DNA from: Hydrogenophaga sp.
GTDB lineage: Bacteria > Pseudomonadota > Gammaproteobacteria > Burkholderiales > Burkholderiaceae_C
DNA: 64,000 nt
Reading direction: 5' to 3'
Assembly (NCBI RefSeq): GCF_019264445.1
Contig: NZ_JAHVAB010000029.1
Location: 1-64,000 of the forward strand
Part shown: in pieces, positions 1-19,215 of the stretch
Layout of the letters: every line of letters starts with the position of its first letter
Position numbering within the stretch: the stretch's first letter is position 1
Notes under the pieces: model-generated
The model's database searches: none
What the model saw: the letters and a program-made list of their open reading frames with translations, nothing else
Told to the model about the DNA's origin: nothing
Translations under genes and position numbers: made by a program

Positions 1-1
1 G

Positions 2-46
2 GCCGTGGTGAACCACCACGCCGCCGCCTTGGGCTTTGTGGAGTGA
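2..46 (+). CDS. 3' end of an unidentified gene (partial)
   Basis: An open frame enters from the left edge and stops with TGA, ending in the residues AVVNHHAAALGFVE. It lies 52 bases upstream of the fliD start and on the same strand. In relatives this position is often a flagellin or flaG gene, but the visible tail resembles neither, so no function is assigned. It is too short to be sure it is translated. Confidence 0.3.
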   Translation, partial: AVVNHHAAALGFVE

Positions 47-98
47 ACACAGCGCATGCCACCCGCGTGCATTGCGTTCAATCCGACAAGGAGCATCC

Positions 99-1520: not shown

Positions 1521-1540
1521 CCTTGTCCGGCCACACCAAG

Positions 1541-1573
1541 AGCCCGGGCACGGTGAACCCTGCCCGGCTTTTT
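1541..1573 (+). terminator. Rho-independent terminator after fliD
   Basis: A GC-rich stem (AGCCCGGGCA paired with TGCCCGGCT, one bulged base) around a nine-base loop is followed by a run of five T. It lies 20 bases after the fliD stop. It implies that fliD transcription ends here and that fliS starts from its own promoter, which is visible downstream. Confidence 0.75.
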
Positions 1574-1655
1574 CACGTCTGGAGTCCTAGATGAACCACA
1601 AGACGCCATCCCCCGTTTCGGCCGGTTTTTCACCGCATATCGTCCATTTCGCGCC

Positions 1656-1682
1656 TACAGTCCCCGCGACGCGTGCCGATAC
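1656..1682 (+). promoter_or_regulatory. FliA (sigma-28) promoter for fliS-fliT
   Basis: TACAGTCC, then 11 bases, then GCCGATAC. The E. coli-type FliA consensus is TAAAGTTT-N11-GCCGATAA, so 5 of 8 and 7 of 8 positions match at the exact spacing. It lies 31 bases before the fliS ATG and after the fliD terminator. The same architecture recurs upstream of five other genes in the window. Confidence 0.75.
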
Positions 1683-1713
1683 AGAAAGGCATCAGCCACA
1701 AGGAACCGATGCC

Positions 1714-2124
1714 ATGTTTACCTCTGTGAATTCCCGCGCCGCCACCGCCTACAAACGCGTGTCCACCGACACCGGTGTGAGCACGGCCGACCCGCACCAG
1801 CTCGTCAGCCTGTTGTTTGAAGGTCTCATCCAGTCGCTCAACGCAGCGCGCGGTGCCATGGAGCGTGGCGAGGTGGAGGCCAAGGGCCGTGCCATCGGCA
1901 AGTCCGTTCGCATCATCGAAGAAGGCCTCAAGGCCGGTCTGAACCTGTCGCAAGGCGGGGAGATCGCCCACAACCTGCTGGGTGTCTACAGCTACGCGGT
2001 GCAGCGCCTGTCGTGGGCCAACCTGCGCAACGACCCCGCAGCTGTCCGCGAGGTGCTCAACCTCATCGAACCGCTGGCCGATTCCTGGAAACAGATCCGC
2101 ACCGGCGCCCTGCAGGGAGCCTGA
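1714..2124 (+). CDS. fliS: Flagellar export chaperone FliS
   Basis: FliS is the cytoplasmic chaperone that binds the C-terminus of flagellin and keeps it unfolded for export. The 136-residue length is normal. The N-terminal NSRAATAYKRV segment and the four-helix pattern (DPHQLVSLLFEGLIQSL, then IIEEGLKAGLNL) are typical of the family. The ATG at 1714 has AAGGA ten bases upstream. A frame extending back to 1591 runs through the promoter and is rejected. fliT starts one base after the stop. Confidence 0.95.
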   Translation: MFTSVNSRAATAYKRVSTDTGVSTADPHQLVSLLFEGLIQSLNAARGAMERGEVEAKGRAIGKSVRIIEEGLKAGLNLSQGGEIAHNLLGVYSYAVQRLSWANLRNDPAAVREVLNLIEPLADSWKQIRTGALQGA

Positions 2125-2125
2125 C

Positions 2126-2428
2126 ATGGAGCACCAACTCTTGGACTACTACAAAGCCATCGAGCGCACGAGCCAGCAGATGCTGGAGGCCGCACAGACC
2201 GAAAACTGGGATCAGGTGGTGCGCCTGGAAGGCGCCTGCGCCGTGCTGATCGCGCAGCTGCGCCACAAGTCAAAGACCGACGAACTCGGCCCGGAAGACC
2301 GCAAGGAAAAGAACCGGATCATGCAGCGCATCCTGCGCACCGACGCCGAGATCCGCTGCCTGGCCGAACCCTGGCTGAACGACCTGGCACAAATGTTCGA
2401 CCGAGGTAGCCCCGCCCCCATGCATTGA
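2126..2428 (+). CDS. fliT: Flagellar protein FliT (FliD chaperone)
   Basis: FliT is a small helical protein that escorts FliD to the export apparatus and, in enterobacteria, inhibits FlhDC. This 100-residue product has the expected size and the order fliD-fliS-fliT. The sequence itself is weakly conserved: YYKAIERTSQQMLEAAQTENW is a typical FliT first helix and the rest is charged helix. The gene follows fliS with a one-base gap and AGGGA within the end of fliS, suggesting translational coupling. The position makes the call firm even though FliT proteins diverge strongly. Confidence 0.85.
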   Translation: MEHQLLDYYKAIERTSQQMLEAAQTENWDQVVRLEGACAVLIAQLRHKSKTDELGPEDRKEKNRIMQRILRTDAEIRCLAEPWLNDLAQMFDRGSPAPMH

Positions 2429-2439
2429 AAGGCGCCCCC

Positions 2440-2510
2440 CGCGCCGGCCTGCGGCCGTCACCCCCCAGGGGGCGATGTCTGCGGTCTGGCAGAGCCAGTC
2501 CCGCGACATC
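2440..2510. repeat. Three-hairpin intergenic repeat, copy A
   Basis: The copy lies between convergent fliT and fliE. It has a GGCC-tgc-GGCC stem, a C-run/G-run stem (CCCCCC-A-GGGGG), then an outer stem GATGTC (2474-2479) pairing with GACATC (2505-2510). The outer stem encloses CTGGC-aga-GCCAG (2486-2498). The other three copies keep this layout but have different bases in the outer stem, always complementary. Here it may also end transcription from both sides. Confidence 0.7.
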
Positions 2511-2541
2511 CTGGACGGGTCACGCGCTCCGGAAAGGGAAC

Positions 2542-2856
2542 TCAGACACTCATGTTCATGATGTCGCTGTAAGCCTGAACCATGCGGTTGCGCACGTGCA
2601 GCGTGGCCTGGAAGCCGATCTGGGACTTCTGCATGGCGAGCATGGTTTCTTCCAGGCTCACCTTGGGGTTGCCCAGCTGCACCTGGGTCTGCAGGCGAGA
2701 GGCTTCTTCCTGTGAGGCGCTCACTTCCTTCAGGGCGTTCTTGAAGTTCGCGGCAAAGCCGGACTCCACCCCGTTGGCCGCGCCGGGGCGCTTGAGGGCC
2801 GACTGGCCGATGCCGTTGAGGGCCTGGCTGGTGAGGGGAGAAATGCGCATGTCCAT
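2542..2856 (-). CDS. fliE: Flagellar hook-basal body protein FliE
   Basis: FliE links the MS ring to the proximal rod and is an early exported component. The 104-residue length is usual. The N-terminus DMRISPLTSQAL and the C-terminal LAMQKSQIGFQATLHVRNRM/VQAYSDIMNMSV region are the FliE hallmark. The start at 2856 has AAGGAG directly upstream. A longer frame to 2934 adds a non-homologous leader. The gene is on the opposite strand and diverges from fliF, while fliT converges on it, so it has its own transcript. Confidence 0.95.
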   Translation of the reverse strand: MDMRISPLTSQALNGIGQSALKRPGAANGVESGFAANFKNALKEVSASQEEASRLQTQVQLGNPKVSLEETMLAMQKSQIGFQATLHVRNRMVQAYSDIMNMSV

Positions 2857-3039
2857 GGCGGACTCCTTCAACAAAAGATGACGCCCTGATGCTAGGGGGC
2901 GCACCGCCTGCAAGGGGCGGGAATAAGGGCACAAACGCCGGCCTTTTCACGGCTATGGCGCGGGCACCCGGACCGAATAATCGAACGCAACAGGGTGTCA
3001 ATCCCTCTGCCATCGACCTTCTACCGAACCCCGAATGCC

Positions 3040-4737
3040 ATGAGCACCACCGCCGTTGCCGAACTGGATGTCACACCGCCCGCCCGAGAGCGCAGCGCGT
3101 TCGGCGACGGGTTCGCCCGCATGGACCAGGCACAGAAGATCAAGCTCGGCCTGGGCGCCCTCGCCCTGCTGGCGATTGCGCTGGCGTTCTTCTTCATGGG
3201 CCGCCAGCCCGAGTGGCGCGTGCTCTACGCCAACCTCGGTGACAAAGACGGTGGCGCCATCGTGGCCCAGCTCTCGCAAATGAACGTGCCCTACAAGCAC
3301 GCCGAGGGCGGCCAGGCCATCATGGTGCCGGCCGACAAGGTGCACGACACGCGCCTGCGCCTGGCCTCGCAAGGCCTGCCCAAAGGCTCGGTCACCGGTT
3401 TCGAAATGATGGAAGCCAACCGCTTCGGCATGACGCAGTTCCAGGAGCGCCTGACCTTCCAGCGCGGCCTGGAGGGCGAACTCACCCGTTCGATCCAGTC
3501 GCTGTCGTCGGTGCAGAGCGCACGCATTCACCTGGCCCTGCCCAACCAGAACGGTTTCTTTCGCGAACAGCAGAAGCCCAGCGCGTCGGTGCTGCTCACA
3601 CTGCACCCCGGCCGCACACTGGACCGCGCCCAGGTGGCCGGCATCGTGCACCTGGTGGCCTCCAGCGTGCCCGAGATGAACCCCAAGGCGGTGAGCATCG
3701 TGGACGACGCGGGCAACCTGCTCTCCAACCCACCCGATGGCCAGGCCCAGGGCGCAGACACCCAGAAGCTGCAGTACGTGCAGCAGCTCGAACAGCTCTA
3801 CACCCGCCGCATCATGGAGATGCTGGAGCCGCTGGTGGGCCGCAACAACGTGAAGGCGCAGGTGAGCGCCGAAGTCGACTTCTCGATGGTGGAGTCCACC
3901 AGCGAACAGCACCGCCCCAACCAGGGCCCCGACGCACCCGCGACCGTGCGCAGCCAGCAGACCGTGGAAGACGGCAGCGGCCCGCGCGCCCAGCCGTCGG
4001 GCGTGCCCGGCGCGGTGAGCAACCAGCCGCCGGCCACCGGCACCGCCCCCATCAACGGCGCCGCCGCACCCGTGGGTGTGAACAGCGCCCAGGGCACCGG
4101 CCAGGCCGGCAGCTCGCGCCGCGAGTCGGTGGTGAACTACGAGGTCGACAAAACGGTGAAGGTGGTGCGCGAATCCAGCGGCCAGGTCAAGCGCCTGAGC
4201 GCGGCGGTGGTGATCAACCACCGCACCACGGTGGACAAGGCCGGCAAGGAAACCACCACCGCCATTCCGCCGCAGCAGCTCGAACAAATGACCGCGCTGG
4301 TGCGCGAAACGATTGGCTTCAACAAGGAACGCGGCGACTCGGTCAACGTGGTCAACGCGGTGTTCAACGTCGAAAAGGCCGGCGAGGACGCTGCGGCCCT
4401 GCCCTGGTGGAAAGAGGCCGACAACCAGGAACTCATGCGCAGCCTGGCCTGGCCGCTGGGCATGGTGGGCCTGGGCCTGCTGGTGCTCATGGGCATGGTG
4501 CGCCCCGGCCTCAAGCTCATGAAGACGCCGGCCGCGCGCCGCCTGGAAACCACACCGGTGCAACCGCTCAACGCGGTGCTCAACGAATCGCCCGAGCGCC
4601 CCGGCCTGCCCATGCCGAGCAACGAACCGACCGCTGAAGCGCAACGCATCGCCGACGCCAAGCGCCTCGCGCTGGAGAACCCGATGGCGGTGGCGAACAT
4701 CGTCAAGGGCTGGGTGAATGGTGAGGCGCCGGCATGA
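3040..4737 (+). CDS. fliF: Flagellar MS-ring protein FliF
   Basis: FliF builds the MS ring in the inner membrane, the platform for the rod, the switch and the export gate. The 565-residue product has a first membrane helix at about residues 35-53 (LGLGALALLAIALAFFFMG). Periplasmic ring-building motifs follow, then a long low-complexity Pro/Gly/Ala linker, a second helix at about 469-487, and a cytoplasmic tail (ENPMAVANIVKGWV) that binds FliG. The ATG at 3040 was chosen; a GTG at 2995 in frame is possible but adds no recognised sequence. Neither has a strong ribosome site. It heads the fliF-fliK run. Confidence 0.95.
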   Translation: MSTTAVAELDVTPPARERSAFGDGFARMDQAQKIKLGLGALALLAIALAFFFMGRQPEWRVLYANLGDKDGGAIVAQLSQMNVPYKHAEGGQAIMVPADKVHDTRLRLASQGLPKGSVTGFEMMEANRFGMTQFQERLTFQRGLEGELTRSIQSLSSVQSARIHLALPNQNGFFREQQKPSASVLLTLHPGRTLDRAQVAGIVHLVASSVPEMNPKAVSIVDDAGNLLSNPPDGQAQGADTQKLQYVQQLEQLYTRRIMEMLEPLVGRNNVKAQVSAEVDFSMVESTSEQHRPNQGPDAPATVRSQQTVEDGSGPRAQPSGVPGAVSNQPPATGTAPINGAAAPVGVNSAQGTGQAGSSRRESVVNYEVDKTVKVVRESSGQVKRLSAAVVINHRTTVDKAGKETTTAIPPQQLEQMTALVRETIGFNKERGDSVNVVNAVFNVEKAGEDAAALPWWKEADNQELMRSLAWPLGMVGLGLLVLMGMVRPGLKLMKTPAARRLETTPVQPLNAVLNESPERPGLPMPSNEPTAEAQRIADAKRLALENPMAVANIVKGWVNGEAPA

Positions 4738-4753
4738 GCCGGCGCCACCCCCT

Positions 4754-4837
4754 GCGCCGCTGCGCGGCTTCCCCCTCTCTCGCCTTCGGCGGGAGGGGGA
4801 CGGCATCTCGGGCCGGCGGAGCCGGACCCTTGATGCC
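4754..4837. repeat. Three-hairpin intergenic repeat, copy B
   Basis: This copy lies inside the fli operon, between fliF and fliG. Stems are GCCGC-tgc-GCGGC, then CCCCCTC...GAGGGGG closed by CGCC-ttc-GGCG. The outer stem is GGCATC (4802-4807) with GATGCC (4832-4837), enclosing CCGGC-gga-GCCGG (4813-4825). The outer stem is the mirror of copy C, a clear compensatory change. Confidence 0.75.
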
Positions 4838-4898
4838 CCTGGATGCGGGCGCGGGCGCTCGAGCGTTTCGTCTGAATTGCGTTGAAGGAATCTGAATC

Positions 4899-5897
4899 AT
4901 GGAAGACCAGGGAATCCAGGACGCTGCCATCTTTCTCATGTCGCTGGGCGAAGAGGAAGCGGCCGAGGTGTTCAAGCACCTTTCGCCCAAGGAAGTGCAG
5001 AAGCTGGGCGAGACGATTGCCAAGACGCGTTCGGTGTCGCACGAGCGCGTGGACCAGGTGATGCAGAAGTTCACCACCGAGGCGTCTTCGCAGAGCCTGC
5101 TGGTGTCCGACACCGACAACTACGTGCGCGCCGTGCTCAAGCGCGCGCTGGGCGATGACAAGGCGTCGCTGCTGATCGACCGCATCTTGCAGGGCGGTGA
5201 TGTCTCGGGCATTGAAAGCCTGAAGTGGATGGACCCGCTGTCCATTGCCGAGCTGCTGCGCAACGAGCACCCGCAGATCGTGGCCGCCATCCTGGTGCAC
5301 CTGGAGTCGGACCAGACCGCCGGCGTGCTGAAGAACTTCAACGAGCGCACGCGCAACGAGGTGATGCTGCGCATCGCCACGCTCGAAGGCATCCAGCCCA
5401 CGGCCCTGAAAGACCTCAACGAGGTGCTCTACAAGGTGCTCGCCGGTGGCGACAAGATCCGCAAGACCTCCATGGGCGGTGTGAAGACGGCCGCTGAAAT
5501 CATCAACATGATGGGCACGCAGATCGAGACCTCGGTGATCGAGTCGATCCGCGAATTCGACAGCGACCTGGCCCAGAAGATCATGGACAAGATGTTCATC
5601 TTCGAAGACCTGCTCAAGCTCGACGGCAAGTCGATCCAGATGGTGCTGAAAGAAGTGGCCACCGATTCGCTGGTGATCGCGCTCAAGGGCGCCACCACCG
5701 AGCTGCGCGATCTGGTGCTGGGCAACATGTCCAGCCGCGCCGCCGAAGCGCTGCGCGAAGACCTCGAATCGCGCGGCCCGGTGCGCCTGTCCGAAGTGGA
5801 AGGCCAGCAGAAGGAAATCCTGAAGATCGTTCGCCGCCTCTCCGACGAAGGCCAGATCGTGATCATGGGCGGCGGCGAAGAAGAAGCGTTCGTCTGA
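4899..5897 (+). CDS. fliG: Flagellar motor switch protein FliG
   Basis: FliG sits on the cytoplasmic face of the MS ring, contacts the stator and generates torque. The 332-residue length is standard. The N-terminal FliF-binding domain opens with QDAAIFLMSLGEEEAAEVFK. The middle domain carries the EHPQIV motif (residues 123-128) that binds FliM. The C-terminal domain has the charged torque helix (REFDSDLAQKIMDKMFIFED). AAGGA lies ten bases before the ATG. It follows fliF after repeat copy B and precedes fliH by ten bases. Confidence 0.97.
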   Translation: MEDQGIQDAAIFLMSLGEEEAAEVFKHLSPKEVQKLGETIAKTRSVSHERVDQVMQKFTTEASSQSLLVSDTDNYVRAVLKRALGDDKASLLIDRILQGGDVSGIESLKWMDPLSIAELLRNEHPQIVAAILVHLESDQTAGVLKNFNERTRNEVMLRIATLEGIQPTALKDLNEVLYKVLAGGDKIRKTSMGGVKTAAEIINMMGTQIETSVIESIREFDSDLAQKIMDKMFIFEDLLKLDGKSIQMVLKEVATDSLVIALKGATTELRDLVLGNMSSRAAEALREDLESRGPVRLSEVEGQQKEILKIVRRLSDEGQIVIMGGGEEEAFV

Positions 5898-5907
5898 TCG
5901 ACCGCCC

Positions 5908-6627
5908 ATGCACAGACACACCATGGCCACCTCCAAACCCAACCCCCACTCCCGCTTCATCCCGCGCGAAGAAATCGACGGCGTGGCCGCCTGGCATTTC
6001 TCGGCGGTCGACGGCAGCGACGACCACGCCCACGCGGCCACCGCAGACGGCAGCTCCGGCGAAGGCGTGACCTCCGAGGTGCTGCAGGAAGCGCGCCAGC
6101 AGGCGTATGCCGATGGTTTTGCACGCGGCCACGACGCCGGCGGCCAGGAAGTGCGCGACGCGATGGAAGCCACGCTGCGCAAGACCGCCGAAGAAACCGC
6201 CGTGCGCATGGCGCAGCTGCTGCACAACACGCGCGACCACCTCAAGAAGAGCGAAGACCAGATCTCGCGCCACATCCTGGAGCTGGCCTGCGACCTGGCA
6301 CGCCAGGTGGTGCGCCAGGAGATCAAGAGCGACCCGGCGCACCTCAGGCCCGTGATCGCCGAAGCGCTGGGCCAGCTCGTGGACGACGGCCAGGCCGCCA
6401 CCGTGCGCATGAACCCGGGCGACCTCGCCATGATGAAAGGCGCCCTGCTGGAAAACATGGGCAGCCACCCCGCCGAGTTCGTGGCCGATGCCGCCATCAG
6501 CCCCGGCGGCTGCCTGATCGAGTCGGCCACCATGACGGTGGACGCCACCATTGAAAAACGCTGGTCGCGCGCCGTGGGCAACCTCGGCATGGACGCGGCC
6601 TGGAACCCAAAGGACACCGATGTCTGA
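5908..6627 (+). CDS. fliH: Flagellar assembly protein FliH
   Basis: FliH is the stator-like negative regulator of the export ATPase FliI and tethers it to the C ring. The 239 residues comprise a variable N-terminus, an Ala/Glu-rich coiled-coil stretch (about 80-130) and the conserved C-terminal FliH domain ([22 protein letters not shown] and [20 protein letters not shown]). The start may be 5908 or the ATG at 5923, which begins MATSKPNPH; no ribosome site decides it. The 3' end overlaps fliI by eight bases. Confidence 0.92.
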
Positions 6628-8098
6628 CAGCACGTTCGGAACGGAAAGCCGCTGGGGCCACTTCATGGAAGACGTGCGCGCCAACGCGGCGGTGAAAACG
6701 CCGCTGGAAGTGCGCGGCACGCTCACCCGCCTGGCGGGGCTCGTGCTGGAGGCTGTGGGCCTGAAGGTGCCGGTGGGCTCGCAGTGCCTGATCGAGAACG
6801 GCCACAAGGAGCCGGTGCTGGCCGAGGTGGTGGGCTTCTCCAACGACAAGGCCTACCTCATGCCCGCAGGCGACACGCACGGCCTCTCCAGCGGCGCGAG
6901 CGTCACGCCGCTGGCGCCCTACCGCACCGTGCCGCGCGTGGGCCATGCCAACAAGCCGCCTTCGCCCGACGACCGCGGCACGCTGCGCCTGCCCCTGGGC
7001 GCGGGCCTGCTGGGCCGCGTGGTCGACTCGCACGGCAACCCGCTGGACCACCAGGGCCCCATCACCCACGTGGACATCGAGCCGATGGACCGCGCGCCCC
7101 TCAACGCCATGGACCGTGACCCGGTGCGCACGCCGCTGGACACCGGTGTGCGCGCCATCAACGCGCTGCTCACCGTGGGACGCGGCCAGCGCATTGGCCT
7201 GTTTGCCGGCTCCGGCGTGGGCAAGAGCGTGCTGCTGGGCATGATGGCCCGCTACACCAAGGCCGACGTGATCGTGGTCGGGCTCATCGGCGAACGTGGC
7301 CGCGAGGTAAAGGAATTCATTGAAGACATCCTGGGCGCCGAGGGCCGCAAGCGCTCGGTGGTGGTGGCCGCTCCGGCCGACGCGCCGCCGCTGGTGCGCA
7401 TGCAGGGCGCCGCGTATGCCACGGCCATTGCCGAGCGCTTCCGCGACGACGGGCTCGACGTGCTGCTGCTCATGGACTCGCTCACCCGCTACGCCATGGC
7501 GCAGCGCGAGATCGCGCTGGCCATTGGCGAGCCCCCGGCCACCAAGGGCTACCCGCCTTCGTGCTTTGCCAAGCTGCCGCAACTGGTGGAGCGCAGCGGC
7601 AACGGCCTCAATGGCAAGGGTTCGATCACGGCCTTCTATACCGTGCTCTCCGAAGGCGACGACCAGCAGGACCCGATTGCCGACGCGGCCCGCGCCATCC
7701 TGGACGGCCACATCGTGCTCTCGCGCGCGCTGGCCGAGTCGGGCCACTTCCCGGCCATCGATGTGGAGGCCTCGGCTTCCCGCGTGATGCACAACGTGGC
7801 CGGCGCGGTGCACCTGGAGCTGGCGCGCAAGTTCCGCAGCCTGTACTCGCGCTACCAGAAGAGCCGCGACCTGATCCAGCTGGGCGCCTACGTGGCCGGC
7901 AGCGACCCGGAAACCGACCGCGCCATCGTGCTCTACCCCGCCCTGCAGCGCTTCCTGATGCAGGACATGCACGAGGCCGCCACCTTGCCAGAGAGCCTGC
8001 GCCAGATGCAGACCGCGCTGCAGGACGACAAGGAAAAAGGCGCGCCGCAGCGCCAGTCCCGCCCGCACCACAACCCGTATGAAGGAAGCGCAGGATGA
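6620..8098 (+). CDS. fliI: Flagellum-specific ATP synthase FliI
   Basis: FliI is the hexameric ATPase of the flagellar type III export apparatus. The 492-residue product has a Walker A motif GSGVGKS (about residues 198-204), an [10 protein letters not shown] block, and a Walker B region [17 protein letters not shown] (about 281-297). All of these are typical of the F1-beta-like family. The ATG at 6620 has AAAGGA just upstream and lies inside the end of fliH. The stop overlaps the fliJ start as ATGA, so fliH-fliI-fliJ are probably translationally coupled. Confidence 0.97.
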
Positions 8099-8559
8099 CC
8101 GCGATACAGACGCTGCACAAAGTGGTGGATATCGCCGAAAAGCGCCGGGACGAAGCGCTCGGCGTGCTGGCCCAGATGCAGCGCGAGCTGCGCGTGGCGC
8201 AAGACCAGATGGACCAGCTGCAGGCCTACGCCCAGGAGGCCGAGGCACGCTGGACCGCACGCAGCGCCGTGGGCGTGGACACCGCGCTGCTCATGCACCA
8301 CCGCCAGTTCATGCACAAGATTCACCACGCGCTGGAGTTCCAGAACGGCGTGCTCGCCGACCGCCAGCGCCATATCGACAACGCGCAGGAACAGGTGCAC
8401 ACCGCCGAGCGCGACCTGGCCGGCCTGCGCAAGTTCGCCCAGCGCAAGCAGCAGGCCATGGACCACAAGGCGCAACGCCAGGACCAGAAGTACACCGACG
8501 AGATGGCCCTGTCCATCCACCTGCGCCACCAGCTGGCCCAGGCGCAGGCCCGCAACTGA
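8095..8559 (+). CDS. fliJ: Flagellar export protein FliJ
   Basis: FliJ is a small coiled-coil protein that sits in the FliI hexamer and links it to FlhA. The 154-residue product is almost entirely predicted helix, with heptad-like charged and Gln-rich runs ([19 protein letters not shown] and [20 protein letters not shown]). The length fits. The start overlaps the fliI stop by four bases (ATGA). fliK follows 35 bases later. The call rests on coiled-coil character plus position between fliI and fliK. Confidence 0.92.
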
Positions 8560-8594
8560 TCCTTCGAAACTGACCCTTCGACCGCGACCCTCTC

Positions 8595-9941
8595 ATGACC
8601 ACCACGCACGCCAGCACCCAGGCCCCCAAGCCCACCGAAGCGGCCAAGCCCTCGCAGCACGGCCACGCGGCGCGCCCGCAAGGCGAAAAACCCGTGCCGG
8701 CCGACCTGTTTGCCAGCCTCCTGAGCCTGGTGAGCGACACCCACCTGGCGCCCACCGAGACCAGCCCGCTGGAGGGCGAAGCCATCGACGACAAGACGGC
8801 AGGCAAAGGGAAAGGCAAAGGCAAGGCCGACGACGCAGAAGCGAACCCGCTGGCTGTTTTGCTGGCCTGGGCCACGCCCGCCACAGCGGCCACATCGGCC
8901 ACCACCGCCGGAGCCACCGCGCCCGATGCCAAGGCGGTGGCCGGTGCCGACACCCAGGCCGCCCTGCTCAAAACCGCTGGTGCGGAAGGCACGGGCAAAG
9001 ACAGCGGCGTGGACATCAGCGGCATGACCCGCGTTGACGAACCCGCCCCCGCGCTGAGCGCACAGGCGCGCGCCGCCTCGCGCCCGGCCTTCAGCCCGCT
9101 CAGCCCGCAAGCCGCAGCCACGGTGGCCTCCACCGCCCAGAACCAGCGCGCGGGCGCCAGCGACAGCACCACCGCCCCTGGCAACGCACCGGCCCTGGTG
9201 TGGCAGCGCGGCGCGGTCTCCAGCACCGAAGCGCTGCAACAGCAGCACAGCGCCCAGTTCGCTCAGGTGCGCGCCACCGCTGCGATCAACGAGCGCCTCG
9301 GGCTGGTGGGCGCCCCCGCCGACACACCGGCAGGCCCCGCCCCGCTGCGCGAGTTCGCACTCGGCGCAGGCGGCAGCACCAGCAACGCCGCCCCAGGCGC
9401 GGGCACCACACAAGACGCCGGCCTGGCCGGTGCGGCCGGCGCCAGCGGCGCCGACACCGGCAGCAGCGGCGACAACAGCCCATCCAACACCTCGCCCGAT
9501 GCGCAGCACGGCGACGGCCACCCCCACGCCAACACAGACGCCGACGCCCCGACCGTGAGCCACTGGGGCACCCAGCACCTGCGCCACGCCAGCCTGCGCG
9601 TGGGCGGCGAAGGCGGCAGCGACGCCATCGACATCCAGCTCGCCGTCAAAGGCCAGGAAGTGCAGGTCGCGTTCCAGACCGACAACGCCGAAGCCCGTGC
9701 CACCCTGCGCGAGAGCGCCGGCGCCTCGCTGGCCGACCTCATGCAGCGCAGCGGCATCCAGCTCGGCGGCGTGTCGGTGGGCTCGCAAGGCACGTCGCAG
9801 GGCGATGGCGGGCACTCAACACGCCCCGCAGGCCTGAGCACCGAAGCCCTGGGCCGCACCGCCCGCGCCACCGAACCCGCCAGCCGCCCTGCCCCGGCAC
9901 CCCGCGCCGACGGCAGCCGTCCGCTGGACGTGTTTGCCTGA
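8595..9941 (+). CDS. fliK: Flagellar hook-length control protein FliK
   Basis: FliK is the exported molecular ruler that sets hook length and switches export specificity to filament proteins. The 448 residues are mostly Ala/Pro/Thr/Gly-rich and disordered, as usual. A Flg_hook-like C-terminal domain lies at about residues 325-400 (LRVGGEGGSDAIDIQLAV, then VQVAFQTDNAEARATLRES and a LADLMQRSGIQLGGVSV end). A lysine/glycine run (GKGKGKGKA) lies at about residues 73-82. It follows fliJ in the operon. Confidence 0.88.
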   Translation: MTTTHASTQAPKPTEAAKPSQHGHAARPQGEKPVPADLFASLLSLVSDTHLAPTETSPLEGEAIDDKTAGKGKGKGKADDAEANPLAVLLAWATPATAATSATTAGATAPDAKAVAGADTQAALLKTAGAEGTGKDSGVDISGMTRVDEPAPALSAQARAASRPAFSPLSPQAAATVASTAQNQRAGASDSTTAPGNAPALVWQRGAVSSTEALQQQHSAQFAQVRATAAINERLGLVGAPADTPAGPAPLREFALGAGGSTSNAAPGAGTTQDAGLAGAAGASGADTGSSGDNSPSNTSPDAQHGDGHPHANTDADAPTVSHWGTQHLRHASLRVGGEGGSDAIDIQLAVKGQEVQVAFQTDNAEARATLRESAGASLADLMQRSGIQLGGVSVGSQGTSQGDGGHSTRPAGLSTEALGRTARATEPASRPAPAPRADGSRPLDVFA

Positions 9942-9969
9942 CGCAGCCCGGCGGCGAAGCCCCGAATAG

Positions 9970-10016
9970 GCGCCTTTTACGGCGCTTATCTGGCGACCAC
10001 CCAGGGGGGTGGCGCC
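9970..10016. other. Two hairpins between fliK and fliL
   Basis: Two stem-loops lie in the 131-base gap: GCGCC-ttttac-GGCGC (9970-9985), and GGCG-a-CCACCC with GGGTGG-CGCC (9992-10016). Neither has a T-run after it, so a classical terminator is not supported. They may separate a fliF-K transcript from a fliL-R transcript. AATAAT at 10018-10023 also occurs upstream of fliF, but no confident promoter can be drawn. Confidence 0.4.
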
Positions 10017-10072
10017 CAATAATTCTTTCAACCCCACACGCTTTGGCCCGTGGGAAACGTTGAAGGAAGAAC

Positions 10073-10657
10073 ATGTCTGCTGCTGCCGCCACCGCCGATG
10101 CCACCGAAGCGCCCAAGAAGAAGAGCAAGAAACTGCTGTTCATCATTCTGGGTGTGGTGGTGCTTGCGCTGATCGGCGCTGGCGCCGCGCTGTTCATCCT
10201 GAAGAAGAACACCGCCCACGACGACGAGGAAGACGGCGACGCGCCGGTGGCCGTGGAGCACAGCAAGCCCAAGACGCCTCCCACGTTCCTGCCGCTGGAA
10301 AACATGGTCATCAACCTGGCCGATGCCGGTGGCAACCGCTTCGTGCAGGTGGGCCTGACGCTGCAACTGCAGGACACCGCGACCGAGACCGCCGTGAAGT
10401 CTTACCTGCCCAAGATCCGCAGCAACGTGCTGGTGCTGATCTCGCAGCGCACCGCCGACGAGATGCTGCAGGCCAAGGGCAAGGAAAAGCTCGCCAACGA
10501 CATCATTGCCACCATCTCGCACGAGATGGGCTACGAAATGCCCGAGGCCGACGAAGCCGACGACCACGACGCCGCACCGCGCAAGAAGAAGAAAAAGTCG
10601 AAGGCGCCGCCCAACCCGGTGCAGGCGGTTCTGTTCTCCAGCTTCATCGTGCAGTAA
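10073..10657 (+). CDS. fliL: Flagellar basal body-associated protein FliL
   Basis: FliL is a single-span inner-membrane protein around the stator that supports torque. The 194-residue product has a short cytoplasmic Lys-rich N-terminus (KKKSKK), one membrane helix at about residues 23-43 (LLFIILGVVVLALIGAGAAL), an acidic stretch, and the conserved periplasmic FliL domain starting FLPLENMVINLADAG. It ends FSSFIVQ, the usual FliL terminus. A Lys-rich insert (RKKKKKSK) near the end is a local peculiarity. GAAGGAAG precedes the ATG. fliM follows after 14 bases. Confidence 0.94.
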   Translation: MSAAAATADATEAPKKKSKKLLFIILGVVVLALIGAGAALFILKKNTAHDDEEDGDAPVAVEHSKPKTPPTFLPLENMVINLADAGGNRFVQVGLTLQLQDTATETAVKSYLPKIRSNVLVLISQRTADEMLQAKGKEKLANDIIATISHEMGYEMPEADEADDHDAAPRKKKKKSKAPPNPVQAVLFSSFIVQ

Positions 10658-10671
10658 CCGGACGACACGCC

Positions 10672-11676
10672 ATGGCCGAATCGTTTCTGTCCCAGGAAGA
10701 GATCGACGCCCTCCTCGAAGGCGTCACGGGCGAGAGCCAGAAGCTGGCAAAAGAGGAAGTGCCCACCGGCGGTGTGCGCGACTACAACCTCTCCAGCCAG
10801 GAACGCATTGTTCGTGGGCGCATGCCCACCATGGAAATCGTCAACGAGCGCTTCTCGCGCAACCTGCGCCTGGGCCTGTTCAACTTCATCCGCCGCAGCC
10901 CCGAGATTTCGGTGGGCGCCGTGCAGGTGCAGAAATACAGCGCCTTCCTGCGCGAGCTGGTGGTGCCGACCAACTTCAACATCATGGCCATCCGCCCGCT
11001 GCGCGGCAACGGGCTGGTGGTGTGCGAGCCCACGCTGCTGTTTGGCGTGATCGACAGCCTGTACGGCGGCAACGGCAAATTCCACACCCGCATTGAAGGC
11101 CGCGACTTCTCGCCCACCGAGCAGCGCGTGATCAACCGCCTGGTGGACGTGGTGGCCGAGGAATACAAGAAGGCCTGGCGCGGCGTGTACCCGATCGAGC
11201 TGGCCTACCAGCGCTCGGAAATGCAGCCGCAGTTCGCCACCATCGCCACCCCCAGCGAAATCGTGGTGTCCACCAGCTTCACGCTGGAGATTGGCGACAT
11301 CGCCGGCTCGCTGCACATCTGCATTCCCTACGCCACGCTGGAACCCATTCGCGACGTGCTGTATTCCAGCGTGCAGGGCGATGCCATCGAGGTCGACCGC
11401 CGCTGGGTCAAGCTGCTCAGCCACGAGATCCAGGCCGCCGAGGTGACCATGGTCGCCGAGCTGGCGCAGACGGAAGCCACGGTGGAGCAGCTGCTGGCCA
11501 TGCAGATCGGCGATTTCATCGAGCTGGACCGCCACCCCTCGATCAAGGCCCACGTGGATGGCGTGCCGGTTTTCGAATGCCAGTACGGCACCCACAAAGG
11601 CAAATACGCGCTGCGCGTGGAGCGCAACCTTCGCGGCATTGATATGAACTGGCTGGGAGATTCCTATGTCAACTGA
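10672..11676 (+). CDS. fliM: Flagellar motor switch protein FliM
   Basis: FliM forms the middle of the C ring and receives phosphorylated CheY. The 334-residue product starts MAESFLSQEEIDALLEGV, the EIDALL motif that binds CheY-P. The CheC-like middle domain follows (with the switch motif region around GGNGKFH) and a SpoA-type C-terminal domain (QIGDFIELDRHPSIKAHVDG). Longer frames reaching back into fliL are shadows. The end overlaps fliN by 11 bases. Confidence 0.97.
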   Translation: MAESFLSQEEIDALLEGVTGESQKLAKEEVPTGGVRDYNLSSQERIVRGRMPTMEIVNERFSRNLRLGLFNFIRRSPEISVGAVQVQKYSAFLRELVVPTNFNIMAIRPLRGNGLVVCEPTLLFGVIDSLYGGNGKFHTRIEGRDFSPTEQRVINRLVDVVAEEYKKAWRGVYPIELAYQRSEMQPQFATIATPSEIVVSTSFTLEIGDIAGSLHICIPYATLEPIRDVLYSSVQGDAIEVDRRWVKLLSHEIQAAEVTMVAELAQTEATVEQLLAMQIGDFIELDRHPSIKAHVDGVPVFECQYGTHKGKYALRVERNLRGIDMNWLGDSYVN

Positions 11677-12094
11677 GACCCCAAACACCATGAACGACGC
11701 TGTTGCAGACGATTGGGCCCAGGCCCTGGAAGAACAGGCCTCCACGGTCAATGTCAACGAGGACGGCGCGCCGGTCTTCGAGTCGGCCACCGCACCGGTG
11801 TCCGCTGCGGGCGCCACGGGCAACCCGATGCAGGACATCCAGATGGTGCTGGACATTCCCGTGCAGCTGTCGGTGGAACTGGGTCGCACGCGCGTGCCGA
11901 TCAAGTACATCCTGCAGCTCGCGCAGGGCTCCATCGTCGAGCTCGACGCGCTGGCCGGCGAACCGATGGATGTGCTCATCAACGGCTACCTGATTGCCCA
12001 GGGCGAGGTGGTGGTGGTGAATGACAAGTTCGGCATCCGCCTCACCGACATCGTGACGCCTTCTGAGCGGATGCGCAGGGTCAGTCGGACGTGA
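11666..12094 (+). CDS. fliN: Flagellar motor switch protein FliN
   Basis: FliN forms the base of the C ring and docks the FliH/FliI export complex. The 142-residue product has a variable acidic N-terminus of about 50 residues. A clear SpoA domain follows (MVLDIPVQLSVELGRTRVPI, LAQGSIVELDALAGEPMDVL and GEVVVVNDKFGIRLTDI). The first ATG at 11666 overlaps the end of fliM; an internal ATG at 11690 is an alternative. The stop codon lies inside an eight-base-pair hairpin, and repeat copy C follows. Confidence 0.96.
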   Translation: MSTETPNTMNDAVADDWAQALEEQASTVNVNEDGAPVFESATAPVSAAGATGNPMQDIQMVLDIPVQLSVELGRTRVPIKYILQLAQGSIVELDALAGEPMDVLINGYLIAQGEVVVVNDKFGIRLTDIVTPSERMRRVSRT

Positions 12095-12107
12095 CCGCAG
12101 GTCACGT
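12089..12107. terminator. Hairpin spanning the fliN stop codon
   Basis: ACGTGACC-gca-GGTCACGT is a perfect eight-base-pair stem whose left arm contains the fliN TGA. No T-run follows. It may protect the 3' end of a fliL-M-N message or reduce readthrough into fliO. The effect is inference; the symmetry is exact. Confidence 0.45.
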
Positions 12108-12115
12108 CACCCCCA

Positions 12116-12187
12116 GCGCCGCCTTCGGCGTCACCCCCCTGGGAGGGGGGCGATGCCTTGGGCCGGCGTAGCCGGACCCTCGGCATC
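12116..12187. repeat. Three-hairpin intergenic repeat, copy C
   Basis: This copy lies between fliN and fliO. Stems are CGCCG with CGGCG, then CCCCCCT-ggg-AGGGGGG. The outer stem is GATGCC (12152-12157) with GGCATC (12182-12187), enclosing CCGGC-gta-GCCGG. The outer stem is the exact swap of copy B. Confidence 0.75.
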
Positions 12188-12218
12188 TCTTGATTGAAGA
12201 CATCTCACCCTGATACCC

Positions 12219-12575
12219 ATGCTGCAAAACGCCCTCCCTGCCCTTGCGCTGCTGGCCATCATGGTGGCCATGGCGTTTGCCCTCAAATGGGCGCGCCGCC
12301 GCCTGCCGGGTGCGGTGGGCCACAGCGGGCCGCCGATGCAGTTGCTCTCGTCGCTGTCGCTGGGCCCGCAGCAACGCGTGGTCACGGTGCAGGTGGGCCA
12401 GGGCGATGAGGCGGTGTGCCTGGTGCTCGGTGTCTCGCCGGGTTCCGTGAACGCGCTGCACCACATGCCCCTGCCCGCCCATCTGCCGCAGACCGAGGCC
12501 CCCATCGTCACGCCCGCGTCCAGCTTCGCGGCGCGCCTGGCCCAACTCACCAAGGCTCCGAATGCGCCACGCTGA
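12219..12575 (+). CDS. fliO: Flagellar biosynthetic protein FliO
   Basis: FliO is a small membrane protein that stabilises FliP during assembly of the export gate. The 118-residue product has one N-terminal membrane helix (about residues 5-22, [18 protein letters not shown]) followed by KWARRR. A short cytoplasmic domain follows with the typical [17 protein letters not shown] and [17 protein letters not shown]. It overlaps fliP by 14 bases, which fixes the assignment. Confidence 0.92.
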
Positions 12576-13335
12576 CACCTTGCGCCGCGGCCTGCTGCTC
12601 GCCGCCGCTGCCTTGCTTGCCACCGGCGCCTGGGCCCAGGGCGCACCCGCTGCCCCCGCCGGCCCCACCCTGCCGCTCATGGTGGGCCAGGGCGCAGGCG
12701 GCACCAGCTATTCGGTGCCGATCCAGACGCTGCTCTTCTTCACCGCGCTGTCTTTCCTGCCGGCCGTGCTGCTGCTCATGACGGGCTTCACCCGCATCGT
12801 GATCGTGCTCTCGCTGCTGCGCCAGGCGCTGGGCACGCAGTCGGCCCCGCCCAATCAGGTGATCATCGGCCTGTCGCTGTTCCTCACGCTGTTCGTGATG
12901 GGCCCCACGCTGGACAAGGTGTACGCCGATGCCTACGAGCCCTACTCGCGCAACGCCATCACCTTCGACCAGGCGCTCGAACGCGGCCAGGCCCCCATGC
13001 GCGAGTTCATGCTCAAGCAGACGCGCCAGTCCGACTTCGAACTCTTCGCCAAGCTGGCCAAACTGCCCGCCGACGTGACCGCGCAGAACGCACCGTTTCG
13101 CGTGCTCGTGCCGGCCTTCGTCACCAGCGAGCTCAAGACCGCTTTCCAGATCGGCTTCATGATCTTCATCCCCTTCCTGGTGATCGACATGGTGGTGGCC
13201 AGCGTGCTGATGTCGCTGGGCATGATGATGCTGTCGCCCGTGCTGGTGGCGCTGCCGTTCAAGCTCATGCTGTTCGTGCTGGCCGATGGCTGGAATCTGC
13301 TCATCGGCTCTCTCGCCGCCTCTTTTGCACAGTAG
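12562..13335 (+). CDS. fliP: Flagellar type III export gate protein FliP
   Basis: FliP is the main (five-copy) subunit of the FliPQR export gate in the inner membrane. The 257-residue product begins with a cleavable-type signal sequence ([17 protein letters not shown]), which is characteristic of FliP. The conserved [20 protein letters not shown] block follows, then the C-terminal pair of helices with [18 protein letters not shown] and MMMLSPV. It overlaps fliO and precedes fliQ by seven bases. Confidence 0.97.
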
Positions 13336-13342
13336 GTAGAAC

Positions 13343-13612
13343 ATGGATCCGCAAGCCGCTCTCACGATGGCGCAGAACGCGCTGTTCATGTTGCTCATGA
13401 TTGCTGCGCCGGTGCTCGGCGTGGTGCTGGCCGTGGGCCTGCTGGTGAGCCTGTTCCAGGCCATCACGCAGATCAACGAAGCCACGCTGGCGTTTGTGCC
13501 CAAGCTCATCGCGGCCATTGCGGTGTTTGCCATCGCCGGTCCCTGGATGATGACCACCATGGTCGAGTTCATCCGGAACACGATCCTCTCGATCCCGAAC
13601 TACGCGATCTAG
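13343..13612 (+). CDS. fliQ: Flagellar export gate protein FliQ
   Basis: FliQ is the two-helix subunit packed around FliP/FliR in the export gate. The 89-residue length is exact for the family. Both membrane helices and the connecting loop are recognisable (MIAAPVLGVVLAVGLLVSLF, QAITQINEATLAFVPK, then AIAVFAIAGPWM). It sits seven bases after fliP. Repeat copy D separates it from fliR. Confidence 0.97.
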   Translation: MDPQAALTMAQNALFMLLMIAAPVLGVVLAVGLLVSLFQAITQINEATLAFVPKLIAAIAVFAIAGPWMMTTMVEFIRNTILSIPNYAI

Positions 13613-13625
13613 ATGGAACACCCCT

Positions 13626-13693
13626 GCCGCGCTGCGCGCGACCCCCTCAAGGGGGCGGCACCTGAGGCCCGGCAGAGCCGGTTCCTCGGTGCC
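13626..13693. repeat. Three-hairpin intergenic repeat, copy D
   Basis: This copy lies between fliQ and fliR, genes that are usually adjacent or overlapping. Stems are CGCGC-tgc-GCGCG, then CCCCCT-ca-AGGGGG. The outer stem is GGCACC (13657-13662) with GGTGCC (13688-13693), enclosing CCGGC-aga-GCCGG (13669-13681). Confidence 0.75.
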
Positions 13694-13728
13694 CTTGTTG
13701 GGGTCATTTCGCATTCGGCCGGCTGACC

Positions 13729-14496
13729 ATGCCCACCTTCACCGAAGCCCAGGTCATGGCGCTGGTCTCGCCGGTGTTCTGGCCGTTCCTGCGCATCCTG
13801 GCGGTGTTCTCCAGCGCGCCCATCTTCTCGTCGCGCTCGGTGCCCATGCGCACGCGCGTGGCCCTGGCGATGCTGGTGGCGCTGTGCGCGCAGGCCGGCC
13901 TGCCCGACCAGCCCGTGGTCGCGCTCACCGATCCGGCCGCCTTTTCAGTGGTGATGCAACAGGTGGTCGTGGGCATTGCCATCGGCCTGGCGGTACGCAT
14001 CGTGTTTGCCTCGGTGGAGCTGGCCGGTGAGCTCATCGGCCTGCAGATGGGGCTGAACTTCGCGGGCTTTTTCGACCCGTCGACCAACTCGCAATCGAGC
14101 ACCGTGGGCCGCTTCTTCGGCAACACCACCATGCTGCTTTTCGTGGTGATGGGCGGGCACCTCATGCTGCTGCAGGCCGTGGTGGCCAGCTTCAACACCT
14201 TCCCCATCGGCGGCAGCGCGTTCGAGTCCATCAACCGCATGCAACTGCACGAACTCGGCGCGGTGGTGTTTCGCTACGGGCTGTGGATCGCCCTGCCCAT
14301 GATCGGCATGCTGCTGTTCATCAACATCGTGCTGGGGTTCATCTCGCGCATTGCGCCGCAGATGAACGCCTTTGCCATCGGCTTTCCGCTCACGCTCTCC
14401 GCGGGCCTGGTGGGCATTGCCTTCACGCTGCCCATGCTGGACGCGCCCGTGGCCTCGCTCATGCGCCTGGCCACCGAAATCTTCACCGGCGGCTGA
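13729..14496 (+). CDS. fliR: Flagellar export gate protein FliR
   Basis: FliR is the single-copy subunit of the FliPQR gate. The 255-residue product shows about six hydrophobic spans. Family blocks are visible: [40 protein letters not shown] and the C-terminal [20 protein letters not shown]. It ends the fli run; 112 bases later a chemoreceptor gene starts from its own promoter. No strong ribosome site is visible before the ATG. Confidence 0.96.
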
Positions 14497-14527
14497 GGCC
14501 GCACCCCTGCCGCCCATCTGGCCGCAC

Positions 14528-14554
14528 TACACCGCTGGGGTGTTGCGCCGATAC
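14528..14554 (+). promoter_or_regulatory. FliA (sigma-28) promoter for mcp1
   Basis: TACACCGC, 11 bases, GCCGATAC. The -10 matches FliA consensus at 7 of 8 positions. The -35 keeps only T-A-x-A. The spacing is exact. It sits between the fliR stop and the receptor ATG (14609) with GGAG before the start codon. Confidence 0.65.
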
Positions 14555-14608
14555 AGGGGCTACGGACTGTTGCCGCTCCCCGGGCACAGCCGTTGTCTGG
14601 AGATCCTC

Positions 14609-16171
14609 ATGAAACTTCGCACCCAGATCCTCTGCCTCGGCCTGGCCGGCGCCGCGCTGGTCTCCGCTGCGGGCGGCATCGGCTGGCTGGCCGTCTCGTC
14701 CATGGCCACCAAAGTCGAAGCTTCCGCCCGCGCAGGCCAGGCGCTTCAGGCCTCGCAAAGCGCGGACATGATGCACGACGCCGTGCGCGGCGACGCCCAG
14801 CGCGCGTTGCTGGCCGCCATGAAGGGCGATGCCGCCACCATCTCCGCGACCCGGACCGACCTGACCGATCACATCACCACCTTCGATGCCGCCCTCAAGA
14901 AGATCTCAGAGGCCGGGGTGGAGGCCGAAGCGCAGAAGGCACTCAGCGCCACGCTGCCGGTGGTCGCGCAATACACGCAGGCGGCGCAGGCGGTGATCGC
15001 CGCTTCGGCGCAGGGCGTGGCACAGGCCGAAGCCCAGATGCCCGCGCTGGACAAGGCGTTTGCGCAGCTGGAAGACGAACTCGAGAAGCTCTCGGGAATG
15101 ATCGAGGAAGACGGCACCCGAATTTCGGCGGCGGCCGCAGCCAGTGTGGCGCAGTCGCTCTGGACCATCGCCGTCGCCGTGCTGGTGGCCACTGTGCTGC
15201 TGGTGCTCGGTGCCCTGTGGGTGGCCCGCCTCATGGCGGTGGCCATGGAGCAGGCCGTGGCCGCTGCGGACCACCTCGCTGATGGTGACCTCAGCCGCAC
15301 GATCACACCGGTGGGCAACGACGACACGCGCCAGCTGCTGGGCGCCATGCGCACCATGCAGCAGCGCATGAGCGAAACGGTGAGCCATGTGCAGGACAAC
15401 GCCGCCCTCGTCTCGGACGCGAGCGTGCAGATCGCCCAGGGCAACAACGACCTGTCCACCCGCACCGAGCAACAGGCCGCCGCACTGGAAGAAACCGCGG
15501 CGTCCATGGAAGAGCTGGGCAGCACCGTGCGCCAGACCGCCGACCACGCAGGCAAGGCCAACGAGCTGGCCCGAAGCGCCTCGAAGATCGCAGCCGAAGG
15601 GGGCGACGTGGTGGGCAAGGTGGTGCAGACGATGCGCGGCATCAACGACAGCTCGCGGCGCATCGCCGACATCATCGGCGTGATCGACAGCATTGCCTTC
15701 CAGACCAACATCCTGGCACTGAACGCCGCGGTGGAAGCCGCCCGCGCAGGCGAACAGGGCCGGGGCTTTGCGGTGGTGGCGGCCGAGGTGCGCAACCTCG
15801 CGCAGCGCAGCGCGCAGGCGGCCAAGGAAATCAAGGGACTGATCGACACCAGCGTCGAGCGTGTGGCCAGCGGCACCGTGCTGGCCGATCAGGCGGGTGT
15901 GACCATGGAGGGCGTGGTGGAGGCGATCCGCCGCGTGTCCGATCTGGTCAACGAGATCAGCAATGCCACCAGCGAGCAGAGCGCGGGCGTGGGTCAGGTG
16001 GGCGAGACCATCAGCCAGATGGACCGCGTGACACAACAGAACGCCGCGCTGGTGGAAGAAAGCGCGGCGGCGGCCGACAGCCTGCGGCAACAGGCCTTGC
16101 AACTGGTGCAGGCCGTGGCCGTCTTCAAGCTGGGCCGCTCGCCGAGCCGGGCGGCCCCGATGGCGGCCTGA
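14609..16171 (+). CDS. Methyl-accepting chemotaxis protein 1
   Basis: This is an inner-membrane chemoreceptor that signals through CheW and CheA. The 520-residue product has a first membrane helix at about residues 6-31, a helical periplasmic ligand domain of roughly 150 residues, and a second helix at about 182-208. A HAMP domain with DGDLSRTI follows, then the cytoplasmic methylation/signalling domain with the near-invariant hairpin tip ([20 protein letters not shown]). The ligand is unknown. The C-terminus is SRAAPMAA and lacks the CheR-tethering pentapeptide present on mcp2. The start at 14609 replaces an upstream in-frame ATG that runs through fliR. The 3' end overlaps a convergent LysR gene by 47 bases. 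Confidence 0.93.
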
Positions 16172-17129
16172 TCGCCGCGGCCCCCTCCAACACGAGCGGG
16201 GCGGCCTCGCGCATGGCCGCCACAAACTGCCGCAGGCGCGCCGGGTAAAACCGCGCGTAGGGGTAGATGAGGTACAGCGGCAGCGGTGGCGCCTGCCACT
16301 CGGGCGCCAGCCGCAGCAGCCGCCCGGCGGCCAGGTCGTCGGCCACCATCCAGGCCGAGACGATGCCCACGCCCAGGCCCGCCAGCGCGGCATTGCGCAC
16401 CACATAGAGGCTGTCCGTGCTCAGGCGCGGCTTGATGGAAAACGGGTGCGCCTGCCCGGTGGCCGCGTGCGTGAGCACCACTTCGTTGCGGTAGTAGGTG
16501 CGCAGCGCCAGCCACGGCAGGCTCGCGAGTTCGTCGGCGTGCTGCGGCACGGGCGCGCCTTGCAGCACCTCGGGCGAGGCCACCACGATGCGCGGCACAT
16601 CCACCAGCTTGATCGCCACCGCCGCCGGGTCGCGCACCTCGCCCACGTGCAGTGCGCAGTCAATCCCCTCGCCAATGAGGTCTTGCGTGTCGTCGCGCAG
16701 CAGCCACTCGACATTCACCAGCGGGTGGCGCTGCAAGAACGCCGCCAGCGGTCGCACGAACTGCTCCTGCCCGAACGCGTGGGGCGCGAGCACGCGCAGC
16801 GCGCCTTTGGGCTCGTCGCCCACGCCGCGCACGTCGGCCTCGAACGACTCCCAGCTCTCCAGCAAGGCCTTGGCCCGCTCGAAGCAGCGCTCGCCGTCTT
16901 CCGTCAGGCGCATGGCGCGGGTGGAGCGCTGCAGCAGGCGCAGGCCCAGCGTGCGCTCCAGCGCCTGCAGGCGCCGGCTCACGGTGGGCTGGGTGGTGTT
17001 GAGCCGCGCGGCAGCGCCCGAGAGGCTGCCCGCCTCGACGATGCGCACGAAGGTCTGCATCAGGTCCAGGCGGTCGCCGCTGACACCGGCGGCATCGGAC
17101 GGTACGGCAAGAGGCGCGGGCTTTTTCAT
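16125..17129 (-). CDS. LysR-family transcriptional regulator
   Basis: This is a 334-residue LysR regulator. The N-terminal winged helix is clear ([38 protein letters not shown]). A periplasmic-binding-like effector domain follows in the CrgA/DsdC-like style common in betaproteobacteria. It diverges from an MFS exporter gene across 98 bases, the usual arrangement for a LysR protein and its target, so it probably controls that exporter. A LysR box could not be placed with confidence. The start at 17129 is chosen over an ORF extension to 17210 that would enter the intergenic region. It converges on and overlaps the mcp1 end. Confidence 0.9.
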
Positions 17130-18457: not shown

Positions 18458-18460
18458 GCT

Positions 18461-19210: not shown

Positions 19211-19215
19211 GGGCT

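Follow-up and report, generated by a model that had tools for sequence, protein, structure and literature searches.

The Beta-proteobacterial repeat element (BRE) of Bordetella and Comamonadaceae, ~90 bp in length, was discovered from a region with RNAz-predicted structure; the region of transcripts bprJ1/bprJ2 contains one copy, and no function is proposed in the accessible text of the report (Hot et al. 2011, PMC3110155). The Bordetellae have also been counted among the repetitive extragenic palindromic (REP)-like repeat families without terminal motifs (PMC3733652), and the roles hypothesised for REPs include mRNA stabilisation and transcription termination (PMC2817692, PMC3733652). A precedent for a protective 3' structure between genes is the malE-malF region of E. 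coli (PMC5927463). We analysed a 64,000-nucleotide stretch of a Hydrogenophaga sp. genome (contig NZ_JAHVAB010000029.1, positions 1 to 64,000; the window), in which four copies of a three-hairpin element lie in the flagellar fli cluster. The element is a dispersed family with covariation in its three hairpins, a preferred orientation, a start close to stop codons, and presence or absence at orthologous sites. The most telling of its features, absent from an earlier model reading made from the sequence of the window alone (the sequence-only reading), is the fixed orientation combined with a start within ~17 nt of the upstream stop codon.

Four fli copies are members of a dispersed repeat

We used two covariance models, R1, built from 11 copies, and R2, built from 81 hand-picked source loci. 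Genes were called with our own codon-usage script, trained on the window and checked on its fli genes; these calls may err in other genomes. The four copies described by the sequence-only reading are present, all on the + strand, with ends agreeing within ~10 bases. The core of copy 1 (2434-2510; 43.4 bits with R1, and 65.3 bits with R2 for 2436-2510) lies in the convergent gap between fliT and fliE and starts 5 nt past the stop codon of fliT. Copy 2 (4747-4837; R1 92.3 bits) starts 9 nt past the fliF stop codon, copy 3 (12109-12187; R1 60.9 bits) 14 nt past that of fliN, and copy 4 (13619-13693; R1 56.1 bits, R2 82.3 bits) 6 nt past that of fliQ. The order of hairpins is common to all four, as had been proposed, except that hairpin 2 is longer in copy 2. 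The four copies span 43-92 bits with R1 while the next-best matches in the window reach 15 bits, and their folding z-scores run from -2.0 to -2.9 over both strands. An unpaired tail motif, CTGGA, stands directly 3' of the last stem of copy 1 (2511-2515, + strand); its equivalent in copy 2 lies at 4839-4843, and copies 3 and 4 are followed by a degenerate CTTG. Scanning window positions 1-20000 with the Rfam 15 models gave no match at the copies at E <= 1.

The covariance model search that the sequence-only reading had suggested as a check returned at least 85 copies in the host genome at E <= 1 (R1), four of which are the window copies. This count rests on the best 150 of 8825 first-look candidates, so more copies are possible, and it includes one doubtful member (C67:53007-53097) that overlaps another copy on the opposite strand. 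A DNA search with copy 2 as query found at least 36 host matches, itself included, among the best 40 of 84 candidates. The untruncated host cores are 71-101 nt long with a GC content of 0.61-0.84 and fall into at least two subtypes. The first comprises 16 copies scoring above 84 bits, 91-101 nt long and mutually close in sequence, mostly with an inner GCGCC/GGCGC stem in hairpin 2; the remaining copies are mostly 71-83 nt. Within 2 nt of the core end an unpaired CTGG is found in 63 of 85 host copies, and CT[G/T]G in 77, with weak similarity for ~20 nt more beyond it. The four fli copies are thus members of a dispersed repeat of ~75-100 nt plus a tail. Since 81 of the 85 host copies lie elsewhere, a device specific to this fli cluster is ruled out, and the earlier picture of an element of fli gaps holds for the four copies only; the gap of copy 1 is moreover convergent (fliT on the + strand, fliE on the - strand).

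Compensatory covariation in the hairpins

The terminal stems of hairpin 3 are exactly as first described. They are GATGTC/GACATC with loop aga in copy 1 (2474-2510; from fold and sequence), GGCATC/GATGCC with loop gga in copy 2 (4802-4837; fold), GATGCC/GGCATC with loop gta in copy 3 (12152-12187), and GGCACC/GGTGCC with loop aga in copy 4 (13657-13693; fold), each enclosing the motif CYGGC-NNA-GCCRG. The assignment in copy 3 is from sequence; its antisense strand folds as modelled, and the minimum free energy structure of the sense strand prefers another pairing.

In an alignment of 101 distinct copies from the host, congeners and other genera, drawn from the 81 hand-picked source loci and aligned by fitting to the structure, 96.3% of stem cells were paired and 21 of 32 pairs had changed on both sides. 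Doubly changed cells numbered 358 against 108 +/- 10.5 after shuffling, a value matched by none of 500 shuffles. The covariation score was 0.275, compared with 0.098 for shuffled alignments and at most 0.060 with the partners slid. We also counted the host terminal stem without any fit to structure, anchoring it on the preceding G-run and the core end in 82 of 85 copies (three without a G-run anchor were dropped). Among 492 cells there were 475 Watson-Crick pairs, 8 G.T, 3 A.C and 6 others, in 41 distinct arm pairs; 2000 shuffles gave a mean of 279 Watson-Crick cells and a maximum of 321. Congener fli copies gave 175 Watson-Crick, 8 G.T, 3 A.C and no other cells (31 of 33 copies used; one partial 34-nt match was left out, reducing 34 copies to 33 for position and stem counts). 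Copies of other genera gave 189, 12, 2 and 7, respectively, for 35 copies, with one of 36 hand-picked copies dropped and most found through a pattern that fixes the right arm. The compensatory covariation claimed from four stems is therefore real and strong, far above chance.

The further step, from covariation to selection on structure, stands less firmly. Covariation alone is no proof of selection on RNA, because DNA template switching can also keep stem arms matched (PMC8794818) and wobbles are rare. Such a mutational origin, in which template switching or gene conversion acts among arms as well as among copies, has a documented mechanism and would account for the few wobbles. It also fits the orthologous fliF/fliG copies, of which five have nearly the same hairpins 1 and 2 with differing hairpin 3, and the sixth, in G001 (L099), is of another subtype. 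This suggests, from sequence comparison, module exchange or independent insertion besides point changes. Two 9-bp stop-codon palindromes (4725-4746 and 12088-12108) point the same way, and the latter shows a matched change in the congener ortholog L122. Against this origin, the non-palindromic parts (NNA loop, bulges, CTGG tail and orientation) are largely kept, and the wobbles lean towards sense RNA, with 16 G.T against 6 A.C over the host and congener terminal stems. The purine/pyrimidine side is also unchanged in 446 of the 475 paired host cells (summed counts), as would result from stepwise change through G.U in sense RNA. At the orthologous fliQ/fliR site, the host has G-C at one pair where L141 has G.U and L123 has A-U. 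A purely mutational origin leaves the position behind stop codons unexplained, and we consider it distinctly improbable.

Orientation and start behind stop codons

The gene upstream of the 85 host copies was on the same strand in 77 cases and on the opposite strand in six, with none called in two. Of the 77 copies with a same-strand upstream gene, 76 have their start at -3 to +26 nt relative to its stop codon. For the 80 host copies usable in a stop-distance test (five were dropped for a missing flank or a position inside a called gene), 73 lay within 17 nt of a same-strand stop, where random place and orientation in the same gaps would give 18.8 +/- 3.5. Between co-directional genes there are 55 of the 85 host copies, and 21 convergent gaps are occupied. 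The convergent gaps are informative because both sides are stops, so that no promoter or ribosome site limits placement. In all 21, the copy is nearer to the co-oriented stop, at a median of 5 nt versus 38 nt.

The rule extends to other genomes. In further Burkholderiales records (Bordetella, Pigmentiphaga, Methylibium, Rubrivivax, Piscinibacter, metagenome-assembled genomes (MAGs) and others), 84 of 98 copies lay within 17 nt of a same-strand stop against 15.6 expected. These loci were found by an exact pattern; of 116 hits, 14 were removed manually, many of which had long inserts or stood close to a locus end, and three at an edge and one inside a called gene were then set aside. They are not independent, since some look near-duplicate (L219/L250). 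All six copies fetched from G118, another genus of the host family, start -1 to 8 nt from a same-strand stop. Of the 33 copies found in the fli clusters of 20 congeners, 31 fall within 17 nt, including four minus-strand copies directly behind the fliE stop. Head-to-head pairs occur with each member behind its own gene, as in L189 (6320-6391 on the + strand with 6492-6563 on the - strand), in the fliT/fliE gaps of L125 and L135 and, less strictly, of L141.

Perfect inverted repeats of 8-9 bp occur at the stop codon just before three copies. In the window they are GGCGCCGGC-ATGA-GCCGGCGCC at 4725-4746 and GACGTGACC-GCA-GGTCACGTC at 12088-12108, the latter being the one with the matched change in L122; the third, just before the element of L035, is CAAGCGCT-G-AGCGCTTG. 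As a general feature such palindromes were too few to retain, with at least 8 bp in 3 of 76 genes carrying an element versus 0 of 141 controls.

Occupied and empty sites, and taxonomic range

Across 25 genomes of the genus, the host included, the fliF/fliG gap holds a copy in six; 18 gaps measure 15-56 nt and one (L114) was unreadable. Element-free congeners have 15-56 nt at fliF/fliG and 4-31 nt at fliQ/fliR, in agreement with the earlier remark that both gene pairs are normally tight. The fliQ/fliR gap of L139 is longer, with contents resembling a decayed copy, and in that of L124 a GTCCTGAGCCTGTCGAAGG stretch takes the place of the hairpin 3 apex and resembles another hairpin repeat nested in the element. 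The 20 congener fli clusters that were fetched, some of them partial, carry 33 copies in nine fli gaps and one site beyond fliR, distributed over 10 clusters. The genes fliH and fliI overlap in 15 of 20 regions and fliI and fliJ in 15 of 19, by 4-14 nt. In G003 and G024 copies sit in fliH/fliI and fliI/fliJ with both genes intact (the G003 fliI/fliJ copy is below the model threshold and was read by eye), which implies duplication or rebuilding of the overlap. L125, the G003 locus, has six elements in ~5 kb from fliT to fliJ, nearly one behind every gene: two in fliT/fliE and one each in fliF/G, G/H, H/I and I/J (the last by eye).

Every one of 20 searched congeners was positive, with 1 to 117 copies each at E <= 1e-3. 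Stricter filters were used for draws of more than 40 genomes. Matches occurred in 6 of 150 genomes of the order, host included (R1), and in 22 of 121 genomes of family f4 (R2), which holds Achromobacter records and, judged by equal lexA places, the B. petrii and Bordetella sp. BOR01 genomes. In the phylum they occurred in 8 of 299 genomes, host included (R2, E <= 1e-4). All eight belong to the host family, so that equal matching of random GC-rich sequence, which the sequence-only reading had named as the contrary result, was not seen. Copies were found in B. petrii, B. ansorpii, Bordetella sp. BOR01, Achromobacter, a Rhodoferax MAG and others. G123, of family f4, contains tandem arrays at C1:4301566-4302154 and 3630059-3630372, with units of 129 and 120 nt.

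These distributions bear on a second explanation, in which the element is a mobile repeat, a miniature element inserting at stop codons, whose RNA structure is a transposition substrate or remnant of little use to the host. The precise stop proximity in several genera, the occupied and empty orthologous sites, the tandem arrays and head-to-head pairs, and the near-perfect Watson-Crick stems all agree with targeted insertion, as do the copies between normally overlapping, intact genes, in which the overlap is represented on both sides. Insertion would explain position as well as a role in the 3' untranslated region (3'-UTR) does, and needs no benefit. However, no mover was found, and by eye we noticed no target sequence beyond the stop codon. 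The host has one Y1 transposase gene (PF01797; G000:C36:60101-60397), and no copy above 15.4 bits lies within the 9 kb around it. Of 21 genomes of the genus, the host among them, 20 have exactly one such gene irrespective of how many element copies they carry; in G002, with 19 element copies, the gene was not found. In the seven congeners that have it on one chromosome-size contig with fliG, the two lie ~48-135 kb apart, so the gene is apparently inherited vertically. A Y1 transposase of the RAYT (REP-associated tyrosine transposase) type is unsupported as the mover, being unflanked by copies and with a presence that does not track copy number. We regard targeted insertion without host function as rather unlikely; if true, a new targeting mechanism would be there to find. 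In a bolder and unlikely variant, the element would be a self-spreading '3'-UTR transposon' of Burkholderiales with insertion coupled to stop codons or mRNA 3' ends. It would supply genes with a complete 3'-UTR and even part overlapping ones (fliH/fliI, fliI/fliJ), and its stems would be free to diverge in sequence as long as the structure is kept.

A candidate 3'-UTR hairpin cluster

The sense orientation, the start next to stop codons both inside operons and in convergent gaps, the kept structure and the lack of a U-tract are best fitted by a 3'-UTR module. Our favoured explanation, which could equally prove right or wrong, is that a small REP-like mobile repeat is kept as a sense-oriented cluster of 3'-UTR hairpins, by which the 3' end of the upstream mRNA is protected or set. 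The repeat would have spread through Burkholderiales genomes in the manner of REPs, with copies behind stops kept or merely tolerated. After transcription, three GC-rich hairpins would form right behind the terminating ribosome and could block 3'-to-5' exonucleases (PNPase, RNase II/R). The upstream cistron would then retain a stable 3' end when Rho terminates transcription or RNase E cleaves the transcript farther downstream. Inside operons (fliF|G, fliN|O and fliQ|R in the window), the upstream cistron may be raised over the downstream one, as for malE-malF in E. coli. It is this mRNA-tail function, and not the family or its position, that we infer.

A transcription terminator or attenuator between cistrons was also weighed. 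In its favour, strong GC hairpins stand just past stop codons, the 21 convergent gaps included. The U-tract after the stem is lacking: TTTT occurs within 15 nt of the last stem in 0 of 85 host copies, and five T in eight in four of 85. This disfavours a plain intrinsic terminator, and the 55 copies between co-directional genes include those upstream of fli genes needed downstream. We think a terminator or attenuator very unlikely. Of the roles first suggested, a REP- or miniature inverted-repeat transposable element (MITE)-like element and an RNA processing signal are both still viable, while attenuation is disfavoured.

Several observations weigh against the 3'-UTR explanation. The antisense strand folds slightly better (mean -49.5 versus -46.6 kcal/mol), the sense strand being better in 17 of 85 copies; folding energy as a means of choosing the strand thus leans to antisense, opposite to the sense orientation proposed. 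The few wobbles (8 G.T in 492 host cells) are also compatible with a constraint at the DNA level. The stop rule is broken by 7 of 80 host copies. In G123, an Alcaligenaceae-side genome of family f4, no more than 2 of 16 copies obey it at the 17-nt limit by these gene calls, and among the rest several are antisense, distant or not the first of a tandem array. In G158 two of three copies obey it. The 20 congeners have anywhere from 1 to 117 copies, and 10 of 20 congener fli clusters, some of them partial, lack a model match, so no site requires the element. If the element is a BRE, the bprJ transcript (>) opposes both of its flanking genes (<) (PMC3110155), which disfavours a 3'-UTR role for the neighbours there unless the 'sense' of BRE is the opposite strand. 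Finally, insertion aimed at stops would yield the same pattern without host benefit.

Many bacterial repeat families are without a known role, and the element described here offers a testable rule in several genera. A portable 3'-UTR, if true, would be a natural system for operon rebalancing by plug-in RNA structures, for which congeners already provide the same flagellar gaps with and without a copy. The rule also offers a way into a repeat family found in records of Bordetella and Achromobacter.

Comparison with known systems

Like malE-malF, the element would end an operon-internal cistron with a stable hairpin, which in the E. coli case was proposed as an exonuclease barrier (PMC5927463). 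Here, in contrast, one homologous family stands behind dozens of unrelated genes. The same paper places most protective structures inside coding regions, unlike the present element (PMC5927463). REPs and REPINs are likewise short, palindromic, high-copy and extragenic (PMC2817692, PMC3733652). The present family differs in having three serial hairpins in mostly single, oriented copies behind stops, a conserved unpaired end CTGG with neither a GTAG nor a CGTC tag seen on visual inspection, and, relative to REP/RAYT pairs, a Y1 gene without flanking copies. Among other structured elements, attC sites and class C introns were considered too.

The closest match is BRE, and the element is probably the same family, as judged from the published description. 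BRE copies are 75-91 nt long, GC-rich (69% on average), mostly intergenic and dispersed (PMC3110155), close to the length and GC content of the host cores. Both occur in Bordetella and Comamonadaceae, here in other species and strains than those of the paper, and both form tandem arrays at some loci (PMC3110155), as in G123. Arrayed BREs are separated by no or few nucleotides (PMC3110155), and with the spacing of 120 and 129 nt in G123 the unit here would include a tail. No locus in Table 3 of the report lies between divergent genes, as expected for copies behind stops (PMC3110155). Published BRE loci of B. pertussis and B. bronchiseptica include one beside lexA. A search of 20 lexA-neighbour loci from related genomes, none identified as either species, showed no convincing copy, the best match being 18.2 bits (E 0.57); G301 and G303 have the same lexA places as G178 (B. 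petrii) and G179 (Bordetella sp. BOR01). The accessible text on BRE reports up to 29 copies per genome, versus 85 in the host, and gives no stop-codon rule, fixed orientation or covariation (PMC3110155); nor did we find the stop-codon rule described in the accessible parts of the other literature surveyed. As far as those sources show, the present family adds to BRE and to the REP families a rule of position behind stop codons, a rule of orientation, covarying stems, and fli sites that are occupied in some genomes and empty in others.

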